A stretch of 64,000 nucleotides of DNA, taken from Halopseudomonas pelagia. GTDB lineage: Bacteria > Pseudomonadota > Gammaproteobacteria > Pseudomonadales > Pseudomonadaceae. Below the pieces are notes generated by a model. It saw nothing but the letters and a program-made list of their open reading frames with translations, was not told where the DNA came from and searched no databases. Position 1 is the first letter of the stretch; the number at the start of each line of letters is the position of its first letter. The position numbers and the translations under genes are program-made. The stretch is from NCBI RefSeq assembly GCF_009497895.1, contig NZ_CP033116.1, forward strand, positions 4,092,001 to 4,156,000, in the 5' to 3' direction. Shown in pieces: positions 38,527 to 44,733 of the stretch.

Positions 38527-41466
38527 TCAGGGCGCACGCATAATTCGACTTATCGCATCCAGCAGATCCTGTATCTGCAGGGGCTTGGTCAGGTAATAGG
38601 CGACGTCGAGATCGCTGACGCGTTGCCGGTCAGCCGGCAGAGCACCGGCGCTGATCACAATTACCGGCAGATCCCGGGTGCGCACGCTACCGCGTAACGA
38701 GCGCAGCAAACGGTCGCCCTGCATATCGGGTAGATCAATATCCAGCAGCAGTACCTGCGGTGGCCGCTCGGTGATGCGGTGCAAGGCTTCCAGCCCATTA
38801 TCGATGAGCGTTACCTGGGCCACCGCAGACAATGCGTGCTGCACCAGTATCTGACTGGCGCGATCATCTTCCACGTAGATCACATCCAGCAGATCGCTGT
38901 CGTTCCGCGCCTGGCTACCGGATTCCGCAGCGCCCGCAGCGTTTGCACCCGGCAGTTGCAGCCAGAAACAGCTGCCTACCCCTGGCTCACTGCTGAAACC
39001 CAGCTCACCATTCATCAGGCTTGCCAGTTCCCGGCTCAACGCCAGACCAATGCCGGTGCCCTTGATCGCGCTGTTCTCATGTCCCAGCCGCTGGAATGGC
39101 TTGAACAGTTTGGTCTGGTCCTGCTGATTGATACCACGGCCAGTGTCGGCCACGCGCAATTGCCAGCCTGCGCCGACGGAAACGCAGTCCAGCGTGATAC
39201 TGCCGCCCGGCCGGTTATATTTAACCGCATTGCTCAGCAGGTTGAGCAATATCTGCCGCAGACGCCGTGGCTCAGCAAGCACCATGGCCTGCTGCTCTGG
39301 CCTGTGCAGACGCAGAGCGAGCCCGGCCATTTCGCGCTCCGGCCGGACCTGCTCCGCGCAGGCCAACAGTGTCTGCCAGGCATCCACAGGCGCCAGTTGC
39401 ACAACCGGGCGCTCGGCTTCAATCCGCGCCAGATCAAGCACATCATCAACCAGCAAACACAGGTGCTGACTGGCCTGCAATATCTCGTAGACTTGCTGCT
39501 GCATGGTTTGTTGCTGAACGCCTGCCTGATGCGAGTCTGCTTGAGACGTGGTGTTGCTAGCGTCTTTTTCCAGATCCAGTGACAACAGTTGCGCAAAGCC
39601 CTGGATCGCATTCAATGGCGTGCGCAACTCGTGGCTCATGCTCGACAGGAAGCGGCTCTTGGCCAGGTTGGCTGACTGGGCCTGCAGGCTGGCGGCACGC
39701 AGAGCTTCCTGAGTCGCCTTGATTGCATCGATATCCACATGGGTGCCGGCGACGCGCTGCGGTCGCTGGAAACGTCCGTCCATCTCCACGATCCGTCCAC
39801 GGCCAAGTAGCCAGTGATAGTCACCAGCGGCATCGCGTAGGCGGTATTCAGCCTCGAGCTTCTGCTGCGCGCTGCGCGGCAACAGGCTGTTACGCGCTGC
39901 AGCTAGGTCATCGGGATGCACGCGCTGCAAGAAGGTGTCGAGGCTGATAACACCGGCAGGCAAGCCAAAACGCTGATTGAGCCGACCCTGGAAGCGAATC
40001 TGCTTCTGCGCCACCTCGACCTCCCAGATACTTTCGGTGGTCGAGTCCAACACCCTTTCCAGGTGCTGCATGGCTTCCTGTCTGGAATGCTCGCTGTCCG
40101 CCAGTTTGTCACCCATCGCCGAAGTATTACTGGCCATGAAGTCGAGCTCTGTGATGGGCGAGCGGTGGGGCTGAGGATGCCAGTTACCTTCACCAATTTC
40201 TTCCATCATCCTGCTAATGCCGCTGATCGGTGCCTCCAGTGCCTGGCTTAACCGCCGCGCACGCAGCGACATAACAGCGAAGAACAATAGATAGAACAGC
40301 ACCAGACCGGCAATCAGTAGATAGCCAATCTGCCGAAACTGCGTGGCCAGTGCATTGGTACGACTGAACAAACTGGCTTCGTCTACCAGCGTAATCAGCT
40401 TCCAGCCAGTTTCAGGTATGCTCGCCCAGGCCGCCAATTGCGAACGTCCGCCCAGTTCGAGCGGCATGACGCCTTGGCTTTCGCTGCCTACCAGCGCGGC
40501 CAGCTCACGGGTGTCATTGCGGTTGGCCAGGTTGAAATCGCCGGGCTTGAATATCTCTTTACGCACGGCTTCGGCATAGCTGTAATGCGTTAGCTCGTTC
40601 AGCCCCAGATCACGCTCGCCCGCTTCCGGCAGCGCCATGATATTCAGGTCCTCGCTCACCAGTACGGCGTAACCGCCCCAGGGCACCGCCAGCGATGATA
40701 TTTCCTCCAGAATACTGCCAATGGTGATATCCAGACCTGCCACGCCTTCGAGAAAATTGTCGGTATAAACCGGCGCTAATGCCGACATCATCCAACCTTG
40801 CCCCGCTGGGTCCACATAGACGTCGGTCCAGGTCACGCCGCGCGATGGATTGTTAACCGCATCGGCCAGGTAGTAGAAATTGTAGCTGGGGATATCCATG
40901 TCATGCGGATACTGCTCGGGGGTGAAAAACCAGGGCCAGATGCGGTTGTAGCTGTCATGCGTGTTGAAATACACCGCGCTGACCAATGTGCTGTTCTGCT
41001 CGATGCCTTTCATCAGCTCGTCAAGCTGCGCCAGGCGCATGACCTTGCTCTGGTCCTGCTGGCTGGGCGGAGTGACGTTCGAGTAGAAAGAAGCCGCACG
41101 GCCTTCGTCGCGCTGGCTATGCAGTACGCCGGACGCCGACCGCACGAGCAAATCAGCTTCCTGCGCATCTTGCGGTACATCCGTTCGCCTCAAGGCAGCG
41201 CCAACCTGCCCGGCAAACAGGCTGGCCAGTTCCCCCACGCTCTTCAGGCGCTGATTAACCACATGCGCTTCCTGCGTTGCGGCCGTCTGCATATCACTCT
41301 GCGCGGTGCTGCGCAGGTGCTCAACCTGAGCATCACGGATAGCCGTGTTGGACAACAGGTACGCCGCCACCAGAACCGTTTCCACCAGCAGCAGCGGAAT
41401 CAGGGCACTCTGGACAAAAGCCCGCCACATCCAGCTGCGCAGGTTGGTTGAATCAGTTCTGGCCAT
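38527..41466 (-). CDS. Hybrid sensor histidine kinase (dCache, PAS, HisKA, HATPase, receiver)
   Basis: 979 residues. A transmembrane segment (residues ~17-37) is followed by a ~330-residue periplasmic dCache-like sensor (NTHDSYNRIWPWF, GVTWTDVYVDPAGQGWMMS, GVAGLDITIGSI), a second transmembrane segment near 375 and a HAMP-like linker. Next are a PAS domain (~465-580), HisKA with SHELRTPLN (His near 609), HATPase with NAVKYN, ADTGRGI and GTGIGLALS, and a C-terminal receiver with LLLDIDLPD (Asp near 905) and Lys in LTKP. No HPt or separate regulator is adjacent. It is divergent, across ~100 nt, from the DUF1538 operon. The ATG at 41466 is chosen over one 5 codons upstream. Confidence 0.92.
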   Translation of the reverse strand: MARTDSTNLRSWMWRAFVQSALIPLLLVETVLVAAYLLSNTAIRDAQVEHLRSTAQSDMQTAATQEAHVVNQRLKSVGELASLFAGQVGAALRRTDVPQDAQEADLLVRSASGVLHSQRDEGRAASFYSNVTPPSQQDQSKVMRLAQLDELMKGIEQNSTLVSAVYFNTHDSYNRIWPWFFTPEQYPHDMDIPSYNFYYLADAVNNPSRGVTWTDVYVDPAGQGWMMSALAPVYTDNFLEGVAGLDITIGSILEEISSLAVPWGGYAVLVSEDLNIMALPEAGERDLGLNELTHYSYAEAVRKEIFKPGDFNLANRNDTRELAALVGSESQGVMPLELGGRSQLAAWASIPETGWKLITLVDEASLFSRTNALATQFRQIGYLLIAGLVLFYLLFFAVMSLRARRLSQALEAPISGISRMMEEIGEGNWHPQPHRSPITELDFMASNTSAMGDKLADSEHSRQEAMQHLERVLDSTTESIWEVEVAQKQIRFQGRLNQRFGLPAGVISLDTFLQRVHPDDLAAARNSLLPRSAQQKLEAEYRLRDAAGDYHWLLGRGRIVEMDGRFQRPQRVAGTHVDIDAIKATQEALRAASLQAQSANLAKSRFLSSMSHELRTPLNAIQGFAQLLSLDLEKDASNTTSQADSHQAGVQQQTMQQQVYEILQASQHLCLLVDDVLDLARIEAERPVVQLAPVDAWQTLLACAEQVRPEREMAGLALRLHRPEQQAMVLAEPRRLRQILLNLLSNAVKYNRPGGSITLDCVSVGAGWQLRVADTGRGINQQDQTKLFKPFQRLGHENSAIKGTGIGLALSRELASLMNGELGFSSEPGVGSCFWLQLPGANAAGAAESGSQARNDSDLLDVIYVEDDRASQILVQHALSAVAQVTLIDNGLEALHRITERPPQVLLLDIDLPDMQGDRLLRSLRGSVRTRDLPVIVISAGALPADRQRVSDLDVAYYLTKPLQIQDLLDAISRIMRAP

Positions 41467-41568
41467 GTTACACCTGTCCATTGATAGAGGTCAGCTTCTC
41501 CACACCAGGCCCCTGCTACTATCAGAACTGATATACCAAGCAAGCCAGCGAAAGGATCCGCCACTATT

Positions 41569-43074
41569 GTGAATCATCTTCTGACCTTCTGGCACACTCT
41601 CAAGCATTCTTTTGGCAACTTGCTGCCGATTGTGCTGGTGGTCGGCATTTTTCAGTTGCTGATCATCCGTGAGGTGCCAGACAACCTGGGCACCATGCTG
41701 GTGGGTCTGGGGATCGTGGTCTTCGGTGTGGCGATTTTTCTTCAGGGTCTGGATCTGGGGATATTTCCGGTCGGCAAGGGCCTGTCCAATGCCTTTGCCC
41801 GACGCGGCTCCCTACCCCTGCTGATGGCCTTCGGTTTCAGTCTGGGATTTGCCGCGGTGGTGGCCGAACCCGCGCTCATAGCAGTGGCGGAACAGGCACA
41901 GCTGATCAGCGCCGGACGCATCGACGCCCTGACCCTGCGCTTGCTGGTGGCCTTTTCGGTTGGAGCCGTGGTGGCCCTGGGCGTGTTACGCACCCTGCTC
42001 GGCCACCCTCTGCATTGGTACATGATCAGTGGCTACCTGCTGGTCGTCAGCGTGACCTTTTTTGCCCCGGAAGAAATTGTCGGCCTGGCTTACGACTCCG
42101 GCGGCGTGACCACCAACATTGTCACCGTGCCTCTGATTGCCGCTCTGGGTGTGGGCCTGGCCGCGTCGATCAAGGGCCGCAACCCGCTGGCCCACGGCTT
42201 TGGGCTGGTTGCGCTGGCGGTCATGGTGCCGATGATTGCCGTACAACTGTATGGCATCGTCGTCTATACGCTGCTTCCAGCGCCGCTGGAGACCGCTGAA
42301 GTCGCCCGCAACCTGGCCCAGGACCCATCCAGCAGAACAGCCGGACGCCAAGCTTTGATCATGCTTGTGGACCTGCTGAGCATGCTGCGCGATGTACTGC
42401 CGATCATTCTGGTCATTGTATTTTTTCAATATGCCGTGATCCGCAAACCCATACCCTACGTGCGCCGGGTGGTGCTCGGCTTCGCCATGGTGATACTGGG
42501 TCTGTATGCCTTTGTTATCGGCCTCAAGCTGGGGCTGTTCCCGGTAGGCCGCAGCATGGCCGAACAGCTGATTGGCCTGGATACGCTGCTGTGGGTCTAT
42601 CTGTTCGCGTTCGCTATAGGCTTTGCCACCACCATGGCCGAACCGGCCTTGATCGCCATTGGCGCCCAGGCGGAAGAAGCAGCGCACGGAAAACTCGACG
42701 CGAGGCACATTCGCCTGCTGGTAGCACTCGGAGTGGCGATCGGCATCAGCATTGGCGTGCACCGCATCATCGTCGGCGACTCTATCCATTTTTACATCAT
42801 GGGTGGCTATGCGCTGGTGATTGCCCTGACGTTTATCGCCCCACGCTTCATCGTGCCACTGGCTTACGATCTGGGCGGCGTCACTACCTCCGAGGTGACC
42901 GTGCCGTTAGTTACCGCGCTGGGTATCGGGCTGGCCACCCACATAGAAGGCCGTAGCATCCTGATCGACGGGTTCGGCCTGATAGCCTTCGCCTCGATCT
43001 TCCCCATTATTACGGTCATGCTCTACGCTATCGTCATGGAGTGGATCAGGCCAGACACAGGAGAAACAACATGA
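41569..43074 (+). CDS. Double-DUF1538 integral membrane protein, putative ion transporter
   Basis: 501 residues made of two homologous DUF1538 halves (~1-245 and ~255-501), each about six hydrophobic segments. Paired motifs show the duplication: LDLGIFPVGKGLSNAF / LKLGLFPVGRSMAEQL, VAEPALIAVAEQA / MAEPALIAIGAQA, and YDSGGVTTNIVTVPLI / YDLGGVTTSEVTVPLV. From memory, a pair of DUF1538 proteins in Halomonas has been reported as a Na+(Li+,K+)/H+ antiporter; here both halves are fused. The start is GTG 41569 with aaagga upstream. Its stop overlaps the PII-like start (ATGA). Confidence 0.85.
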   Translation: MNHLLTFWHTLKHSFGNLLPIVLVVGIFQLLIIREVPDNLGTMLVGLGIVVFGVAIFLQGLDLGIFPVGKGLSNAFARRGSLPLLMAFGFSLGFAAVVAEPALIAVAEQAQLISAGRIDALTLRLLVAFSVGAVVALGVLRTLLGHPLHWYMISGYLLVVSVTFFAPEEIVGLAYDSGGVTTNIVTVPLIAALGVGLAASIKGRNPLAHGFGLVALAVMVPMIAVQLYGIVVYTLLPAPLETAEVARNLAQDPSSRTAGRQALIMLVDLLSMLRDVLPIILVIVFFQYAVIRKPIPYVRRVVLGFAMVILGLYAFVIGLKLGLFPVGRSMAEQLIGLDTLLWVYLFAFAIGFATTMAEPALIAIGAQAEEAAHGKLDARHIRLLVALGVAIGISIGVHRIIVGDSIHFYIMGGYALVIALTFIAPRFIVPLAYDLGGVTTSEVTVPLVTALGIGLATHIEGRSILIDGFGLIAFASIFPIITVMLYAIVMEWIRPDTGETT

Positions 43075-43418
43075 AATTCTCGGTATTGGTCGCGATGCTG
43101 GCTGAAGACCTCGAAGAGCAGGCAATCGAATCAGCCAAAGCGGCAGGCGCTGGTGGCATGACCATCCTCAATGGTCGCGGGCTGGGCGCCGAACCAAAGA
43201 AAACCTTCTTTGGCCTGACCTACGAGGGCAGCCAGTCAGTGCTGATTCTGGTGCTGGAAAAGAAGCTGTCTCTACGCGTAATGAAATCACTGGTCAAGGA
43301 TCTGGATCTGAATAATCACAGCCGCGGGGTGGTGTTTACCTTGCCGCTGGAACATATCGCCGGGATCGATCACCGCCAGATTGCCCAGTTCGAACAATTG
43401 ATCAAGAACGAAATCTGA
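43071..43418 (+). CDS. PII-like signalling protein
   Basis: 115 residues with the PII fold signature: an N-terminal beta strand (MKFSVLVAML), alpha helix (DLEEQAIESAKAAGAGGMT), a T-loop region (RGLGAEPKKTFFGLTYEGSQ), and C-terminal strand/helix. It is not canonical GlnB/GlnK: the T-loop sequence differs and no ammonium transporter is adjacent. The ATG overlaps the stop of the DUF1538 membrane gene, so the natural inference is that it binds that protein and gates it in response to a nucleotide, as SbtB does SbtA. That role is inference. Confidence 0.85.
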   Translation: MKFSVLVAMLAEDLEEQAIESAKAAGAGGMTILNGRGLGAEPKKTFFGLTYEGSQSVLILVLEKKLSLRVMKSLVKDLDLNNHSRGVVFTLPLEHIAGIDHRQIAQFEQLIKNEI

Positions 43419-43438
43419 TCTCACCAGGAGCAACTGCC

Positions 43439-43834
43439 ATGCTGGTCAAAGACATCATGAAATCCAACGTCGTCACGGTGTCGGCCTTCGCCACCGTACG
43501 CGAGGGCATGCACATCATGCGCTTGCACGGCATCAAATCATTGGTGGTCGACAAGGGTAACGAACACGACGCCTATGGCTTGGTTACCTATAACGATATT
43601 CTCAAGACCATCGTCGCCGAAGAAGGCGATATTGACCTGATCAACGTTTATGACATCTGCACCAAGCCGGCGCTGATCGTCTCACGCGAGCTGGACGTAA
43701 AATACGTCGCGCGGCTGATGGTCAACATGAACATCCAGCGCATTCTGGTAACCAACGCCAACGAACTGGTGGGCATCATCACCATGAACGACATCGTCGG
43801 CGCGATTCTGGAAATGGCCGACGGCATGGATTGA
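43439..43834 (+). CDS. CBS-domain pair protein
   Basis: 131 residues comprising two CBS domains (MLVKDIMKSNVVTVSAFATV..LVTYNDILKTI and VYDICTKPALIVSREL..GIITMNDIVGAI). CBS pairs bind adenosine nucleotides or SAM and regulate linked transporters or enzymes. It starts 20 nt after the PII-like gene and is the third gene of the DUF1538 operon, so it is probably a second adenylate-sensing subunit of the same system. Confidence 0.88.
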   Translation: MLVKDIMKSNVVTVSAFATVREGMHIMRLHGIKSLVVDKGNEHDAYGLVTYNDILKTIVAEEGDIDLINVYDICTKPALIVSRELDVKYVARLMVNMNIQRILVTNANELVGIITMNDIVGAILEMADGMD

Positions 43835-43896
43835 GGGGAGTGGCGAATGGGCAGCTGAAGCCCGGCAGCCAGGCCAGGTCTTCAGCGCGTCAGAAC

Positions 43897-44733
43897 CTAC
43901 TGGCGGCCAATATAGCCTGGATTGAAGATGACCTTGTCGCGCTGAATATTGTCAAAAATATCCCGAGCGGCAATGGCCGGATCTTCCCAATCAGCAGCAC
44001 GATCGCTTTCCGGATTGGCCAGCGGGCCGACTGAATGCTGGCTGATCATGGTACGCATACCGGCCGGTGCGGCGATGAAGACTTTGATGTTGTCTGCTTT
44101 CAGCTCTTGCGCGGCGCTCTGAAACAACCCGTGCAGAGCATGCTTGTTACCTGCGTAGTGCCCCAACCCGGGAGGCGCAGCGCTCATACCAAGAATCGAT
44201 GAGACGTTAAGAATGGTGCCGCCGCCCTGCTTGCGCATGATCGGTATGACCCGTTGCGCCAGATCGGCGTAGGCCCAGTAATTGACCTCGAACATGTCCT
44301 TGGCCTGTTCGATATCCATCTGCTCAAGCGTTGCCAGGTAGGAGTAACCCGCATTGTTGAACAAGTAATCAATGCGGCCAAAGGCTTCCATGGCCTGGTC
44401 GATTACTCTGGGCCGCTGGTCGGCGTCAGCCAGATCAACCTCGACAACAATAGCCTCGCCACCCTGGCTGCGAATCTGCTCGGCCAACTCCTGGGAAGGC
44501 GCAGGACGCCGATCAACCAACACCAGTTTCATGCCCTCGGAAGCGCCGAGCAAGGCCAGCTCGCGGCCCAGGCCGTAGCTGCTGCCGGTGATAACCGCGA
44601 CTTTATCGTCGAACGGGGAGTCCTGTGCTTGCGCAGGCAGCGCCATCACAGTACAGAAGAGCAGAATGGCGGCCAGCCAGGCGGACTGAATCCGCGGACG
44701 AACAGCAAGGGAAGGTGAACTGACAGCAGTCAT
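43897..44733 (-). CDS. Short-chain dehydrogenase/reductase with apparent N-terminal signal sequence
   Basis: 278 residues. After a basic N-terminus a hydrophobic stretch ends in an AxA site (LLFCTVMALPAQAQDS, cleavage after about residue 36), which looks like a Sec signal peptide or an anchor. The rest is a classical SDR: cofactor motif VITGSSYGLGREL, NNAG (YLFNNAGYSYL), catalytic Ser in LNVSSILG and YxxxK in HYAGNKHAL. An exported SDR is odd since NAD(P) is scarce in the periplasm; an uncleaved anchor with the domain in the cytoplasm is also possible. Substrate unknown. Confidence 0.85.
   Translation of the reverse strand: MTAVSSPSLAVRPRIQSAWLAAILLFCTVMALPAQAQDSPFDDKVAVITGSSYGLGRELALLGASEGMKLVLVDRRPAPSQELAEQIRSQGGEAIVVEVDLADADQRPRVIDQAMEAFGRIDYLFNNAGYSYLATLEQMDIEQAKDMFEVNYWAYADLAQRVIPIMRKQGGGTILNVSSILGMSAAPPGLGHYAGNKHALHGLFQSAAQELKADNIKVFIAAPAGMRTMISQHSVGPLANPESDRAADWEDPAIAARDIFDNIQRDKVIFNPGYIGRQ

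Follow-up and report, generated by a model that had tools for sequence, protein, structure and literature searches.

A DUF1538 membrane protein encoded with PII-type and CBS-domain proteins in Halopseudomonas pelagia: a conserved grouping and a candidate regulated cation/H+ antiporter

In the genome of Halopseudomonas pelagia (assembly GCF_009497895.1), a membrane protein of the DUF1538 family is encoded together with a PII-type and a CBS-domain protein. The three genes lie on the forward strand within a stretch of 64,000 nucleotides (contig NZ_CP033116.1, positions 4,092,001 to 4,156,000), here called the window, whose numbering is used throughout. The first gene (41569..43074, GTG start, PF07556 profile) encodes a fused double-DUF1538 membrane protein of 501 amino acids resembling UmpA and UmpB, the second (43071..43418, ATG start, PF00543 profile) a PII-superfamily protein of 115 amino acids, and the third (43439..43834, PF00571 profile) a two-CBS-domain protein of 131 amino acids. 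Coordinates and profile matches agree with the original prediction, drawn from the letters of the window alone, that the genes are tightly coupled: the DUF1538 and PII genes share an ATGA overlap (-4 nt), and 20 nt separate the PII gene from the CBS gene. We propose that they constitute a single compact operon whose product is a regulated secondary transporter, which we judge somewhat better than an even bet as the best explanation of the locus as a whole. An AAGGA lies 12 nt 5' of the GTG start, and the operon promoter is presumed to lie in the 87-nt gap (41482..41568) between the DUF1538 gene and a divergent kinase gene; a scan of both strands of 41380-44000 gave no match to the sigma-70 consensus. 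The divergent gene (38527-41481) encodes a hybrid histidine kinase (Cache-like, PAS, HisKA, HATPase and receiver domains), and a convergent short-chain dehydrogenase gene lies downstream of the CBS gene.

The membrane protein matches PF07556 in two stretches at 429.6 bits (gathering cut-off 22.6), with domains at residues about 21-232 and 271-485, and each half was read as seven transmembrane (TM) segments. Its AF2 model has a pLDDT of 91.2 and a pTM of 0.90. A search for sequence matches to PDB chains found none, and Foldseek and VIA returned no convincing fold for DUF1538; a weak structural resemblance to NCX_Mj, of the NCX/CaCA exchanger superfamily, was seen. Over 101 loci, the net charges of corresponding loops in the first and second half were -0.39 vs +3.57 for loop 1-2, +0.91 vs -1.76 for loop 2-3, -0.59 vs +1.27 for loop 3-4, -0.64 vs +0.98 for loop 5-6 and +0.66 vs -0.26 for loop 6-7, with loop 4-5 near neutral in both. 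These opposite charges suggest that the two halves are inverted relative to each other in the membrane. The protein falls below the NCBIfam equivalog cut-offs for UmpA and UmpB (454.2 vs 490 and 390.2 vs 500; NF041627/NF041628), as do ten split UmpA relatives with a PII gene alongside, which score 360-390 against the cut-off of 490. By Pfam annotation, none of the best 120 of 6614 DUF1538 matches carries PII or CBS in the same chain. One 759-amino-acid protein (P0152) reads as three DUF1538-like repeats.

The PII protein passes the PF00543 cut-off of 25 by a small margin (26.5 bits), and profile match, beta-alpha-beta-beta-alpha-beta fold and monomer model identify it as a true PII-fold member that nonetheless belongs to a separate subfamily. 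We take Lys90, Arg101 and Arg103, in GlnB numbering, to be the phosphate and C-loop positions, and applied this numbering to an alignment of 116 single-PII sequences, tandem PII domains being left out of the counts. The Lys90 position is never Lys or Arg (residues I, V, L, M or Y), the Arg101 position is Gly in all 116, and the Arg103 position is basic in four; in the window, the canonical GlnB/GlnK residues are replaced by V87, G98 and D100. The T-loop of the subfamily is nearly invariant (K/R-T/S-F-F/L-G-L, with K-T-F-F-G-L in the window). The original prediction had both small proteins binding adenine nucleotides, and for the PII protein the loss of the canonical phosphate residues makes this doubtful: judging from these residues, it may either bind another ligand or bind adenylates differently. 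The genome holds three further PII-family genes, one of them high-scoring (112.5 bits), so ordinary GlnB/GlnK-type signalling can fall to others. Two PII-family genes of intermediate score lie at G000:C1:4461850-4462164 (72.7 bits) and G000:C1:4272074-4272394 (55 bits).

For the CBS protein the prediction fared better. It matches PF00571 in two stretches (79.2 bits) and retains, intact, two copies of the motif G-h-h-[ST]-x-x-D (T50/D53 and T115/D118), which we presume to be the nucleotide-binding CBS motif. Counted per column over 113 sequences, site 1 has D in 102 and S/T in 14, and site 2 has S/T in 104 and D in 94; all 24 members of the CBS gene family that were scanned match PF00571. The best PDB sequence match is CBS-CP12 (5nmu; 77 bits, residues 4-120), from which the window protein differs in stopping after the CBS pair, with no CP12 tail.

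The DUF1538-PII-CBS grouping is strongly conserved, far beyond close relatives, with its operon order and spacing, as a check of the neighbourhood proposed in the original prediction makes plain. We sampled 369 genomes of the same class, using as PII query a protein (P0035) 76% identical to that of the window. PF07556 was found in 125 genomes and the PII subfamily in 121, with both in 119, DUF1538 without a PII match in six and PII without DUF1538 in two (Fisher 1e-86, a value overstated by treating related genomes as independent). We then read 126 loci, around the best PII match in 120 PII genomes (window excluded) and around DUF1538 in the six DUF1538-only genomes. On reading, five of these six have a divergent PII gene near DUF1538, and the sixth holds a partial DUF1538 gene; in the two PII-only genomes, PII lies at a contig end (L097) or just downstream of what appears by eye to be the tail of a DUF1538 gene (L172). 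Overall, DUF1538 and PII stand together within a few kb in 120 of the 126 loci, and the remaining six comprise five with PII-CBS and no DUF1538 (L097, L138, L171, L172, L186) and the partial gene (L223). The commonest other neighbour family occurs in only 15 of 96 longer loci. With start codons picked by script, the gap from DUF1538 to PII has a median of 12 nt and lies between -40 and +60 in 107 of 119 loci, and the distance from PII to CBS is -4 nt in 87 of 112. Members of the genus differ in whether they have DUF1538, which nine of the 24 relatives searched carry; in H. laoshanensis the PII protein is identical to that of the window and the DUF1538 protein 98% identical.

Wider searches gave the same picture. 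Among 398 genomes of the phylum, some of them shared with the class sample, 126 carry DUF1538, 121 of which are also matched by the PII query; PII-only genomes number 22 at an E-value of 1e-3 and six at 1e-6. When loci were instead centred on DUF1538, 70 of the 71 top-scoring ones from three family searches showed PII, and the other is cut at a contig end. Beyond Pseudomonadota the view is that of plasmid records: the window PII matched five of 72,556, all among the nine that carry DUF1538, and of the four it missed, the three that were read (L081, L085, L231) all have divergent tandem PII. Seven of the nine were read in all. The five clostridial loci among them have a fused DUF1538 gene and, after it, a gene for a tandem-PII protein of roughly 220 amino acids, the two alphaproteobacterial loci have a single PII, and the CBS profile matches none of the seven.

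The composition of the set varies by lineage. Separate DUF1538 genes in the order umpA-umpB-PII-CBS are the commonest arrangement (91 of 126 loci), and a fused gene followed by PII and CBS, as in the window, is found in ten; the original prediction of a fused double DUF1538 is therefore correct for the window, while most relatives are split. A CBS gene is present in 112 of the 115 single-PII loci, the exceptions being L095, where the contig ends soon after, L176 and L205. CBS is not a universal partner: in ten proteobacterial loci, which form one clade (support 1.0), the transporter is fused and longer, two PII domains come after it, either on one gene or on two, and none of the ten has a CBS profile match (in L221 and L224 support for the second PII domain is weak). 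Next to a DUF1538 gene, a 391-codon frame (L220:5638-6810) may encode a run of three PII domains, of which the third is weak. At another locus (L238:2062-6139) two versions of the module have one CBS gene in common: the consecutive genes are a fused DUF1538, a PII, the CBS, a further PII and a split DUF1538 pair. On a tree rooted by choice on Clostridia, PII occurs on every branch and the CBS loci fall in a single large clade (support 0.84). Because the CBS loci and the proteobacterial tandem-PII loci each form one clade, the mutually exclusive pattern of CBS and second PII reflects few independent events, not ten. PII is accordingly the core partner of DUF1538, and CBS a lineage-specific second partner. 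The distances of the transporter correlate with those of PII at 0.73 and of CBS at 0.69 (106 loci), falling to 0.29 and 0.27 among the 94 split loci, and for this reason we do not claim coevolution of the transporter with either.

The family to which the original prediction referred, recalling DUF1538 proteins of Halomonas as a cation/H+ antiporter, is UmpAB. In the available text of the report on Halomonas zhaodongensis (PMC5484666), this DUF1538 pair is an Na+(Li+,K+)/H+ antiporter with measured K0.5 values for Na+, Li+ and K+, seven TM segments are predicted per subunit, and the clone, active in E. coli KNabc, is given as ORF1-4, with ORF1 truncated and neither PII nor CBS among them; the words PII, P-II and CBS are absent from the main text of the paper. 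It is the sole DUF1538 activity reported in the open PMC literature we found. The window protein is like UmpAB in having two DUF1538 domains in the order A then B and strong NCBIfam UmpA and UmpB profile matches, and unlike it in being one fused chain, in scoring below the curated cut-offs, and in having PII and CBS genes attached. A heterodimer of two homologous 7-TM subunits is the form expected of UmpAB; in the window protein, two halves with opposite loop charges, each read as 7 TM segments, lie in one chain. As predicted, the PII and CBS layer appears undescribed: no paper linking DUF1538 with PII or CBS was found in the open PMC literature, where subscription journals are mostly absent, so that this is no proof of novelty.

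Our best reading, to which we assign a probability of about 0.6, is that the locus encodes a PII-gated cation/H+ antiporter with a second input supplied by CBS or by a second PII. The membrane protein would be an inverted-repeat transporter with two oppositely inserted 7-TM DUF1538 halves, the helices of each half probably interrupted at two conserved motifs, E-P-A and D-x-G-G-V-T-T, and would most likely exchange Na+/K+ (Li+) for H+, as UmpAB does. The PII protein, expected to be a trimer, could dock through its K-T-F-F-G-L T-loop on the cytosolic face of the transporter and, by analogy with GlnK on AmtB and SbtB on SbtA (as far as covered by PMC8352866 and PMC10710835), act as a brake. The CBS protein may be the second input, probably of the AMP/ADP type, with a second PII domain filling this role in other lineages. 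Since the UmpAB clone is active without PII or CBS, according to its description (PMC5484666), a sensor is not required for basal activity, and this agrees better with a brake than with an essential subunit. What the data show directly is the order, spacing and conservation of the genes, their domain families, the opposite charges of the two halves, the conserved motifs and the lost phosphate residues of the PII; the substrate and direction of transport, the docking and inhibition by PII, and the ligands are inferred.

Known systems share parts of this arrangement. As with AmtB-GlnK, a PII-type gene is linked to a transporter gene and T-loop docking is expected; unlike there, the transporter gene comes first and the PII gene second, the transporter has no sequence match to AmtB, and the PII protein lacks the GlnK phosphate-site positions. 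The T-loop of SbtB plugs the bicarbonate transporter SbtA, and a C-terminal CGPxGC redox loop is conserved in some SbtB homologs, in the account available to us (PMC8352866); the window PII has no Cys in its 115 residues, and hence no such loop, and is encoded beside DUF1538 instead of SbtA, with a CBS protein added. CBS and PII-like folds also recur among the c-di-AMP receptors around ion and osmotic homeostasis (available text of PMC10710835, PMC7900238 and PMC4316997), and the window has both folds in common with c-di-AMP-controlled transporters and receptors such as the CBS domains of OpuA and the PII-like DarA/PstA. As the ligand in this organism c-di-AMP was rejected, since the diadenylate cyclase profile PF02457 has no match in the genome and matched 11 of 14 controls.

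Several observations weigh against a PII-gated antiporter. The transporter-PII distances are weakly correlated among split loci, as given above. In the phylum sample, 15 loci hold PII with no DUF1538 nearby (L232-L237, L239-L247; of these, L239 and L244 are truncated on the upstream side and L245 is a weak case), L248 has one PII beside DUF1538 and another away from it, and L249-L251, from three genomes, each have a PII-CBS pair separate from the DUF1538 genes. An exclusive PII-DUF1538 pairing was rejected on account of such copies. PII genes of the subfamily that lie away from DUF1538 (L232-L237, L240-L243, L246, L247) occur in several families of the phylum sample; by eye, their neighbours include genes for an SH3-like secreted protein and an ArgB-like kinase, and the PII-CBS pair of L251 lies downstream of an apparent malic-enzyme gene.

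Two other explanations deserve weight, each of which we consider unlikely though by no means negligible. First, the membrane protein could move another substrate (bicarbonate, another anion or a divalent cation), the KNabc antiport being a side activity and PII reporting on the substrate as SbtB does for SbtA. A 2023 review, in the parts available (PMC10710835), gives ammonium, nitrate, urea or bicarbonate as the substrates of PII-gated transporters, the KNabc screen, so far as it is described, also gave antiport for several unrelated families, the weak structural resemblance is to NCX_Mj, and the closest solved sequence relative of the CBS protein is CBS-CP12. Against it stand the K0.5 values of UmpAB for Na+, Li+ and K+ (PMC5484666) and, in the available text of the reports concerned, the UmpAB homologs noted in marine and brackish cable bacteria (PMC10030654, PMC12093952) and the listing of DUF1538 among pH-adaptation genes (PMC13255231). 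Second, and with about the same low probability, PII and CBS could be assembly or stability subunits, or regulators of a different target, with no nucleotide sensing. This would suit the lost phosphate-binding positions, the PII copies and PII-CBS pairs found apart from DUF1538, and a UmpAB clone that is active in E. coli and, as described, has neither gene (PMC5484666). It fits less well with the two G-h-h-T-x-x-D motifs of the window CBS pair, the high S/T and D counts at site 2 (104 and 94 of 113), and the almost fixed K-T-F-[FL]-G-L T-loop. CBS and PII folds are, moreover, mostly ligand sensors. Finally, that the genes are neighbours through general synteny, as a relic with no functional linkage, is very improbable, and this or chance was rejected on the co-occurrence in class and phylum samples and the neighbour control: some other neighbour genes are common to the genomes, in at most 15 of 96 loci, whereas PII accompanies DUF1538 in 120 of 126, presence and absence are linked across genomes, and the set stays together in clostridial plasmid records and in fused, split and reordered versions.

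A bolder form of the antiporter reading, which we hold tentatively and at somewhat less than even odds, is that a widespread control module is common to Pseudomonadota and Bacillota, consisting of an inverted-repeat cation/H+ antiporter, a PII protein as its own brake and a position for another sensor, taken by CBS or a second PII. Its PII would be a class with a new ligand, the canonical ATP/2-oxoglutarate site no longer being used, and would couple Na+/K+/pH homeostasis to energy state or to a cation; in the genome studied here, where no c-di-AMP cyclase was recognised, this PII could fill the role that c-di-AMP receptors have in other organisms.

In summary, a predicted exchanger keeps its PII-type sensor across bacteria that differ widely, and this suggests that cells turn the exchanger on or off by way of partners that have seemingly gone unstudied. 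DUF1538 occurs in about a third of the sampled genomes (125 of 369 in the class, 126 of 398 in the phylum), and in the literature found one pair has been characterised, without the linked partners; the module is small, at three or four genes. If PII and CBS do gate DUF1538, a large transporter family would gain a regulatory logic, salt and pH work on isolated UmpAB would have missed half of the system, and PII signalling would reach beyond nitrogen and carbon to Na+/K+/H+ homeostasis.
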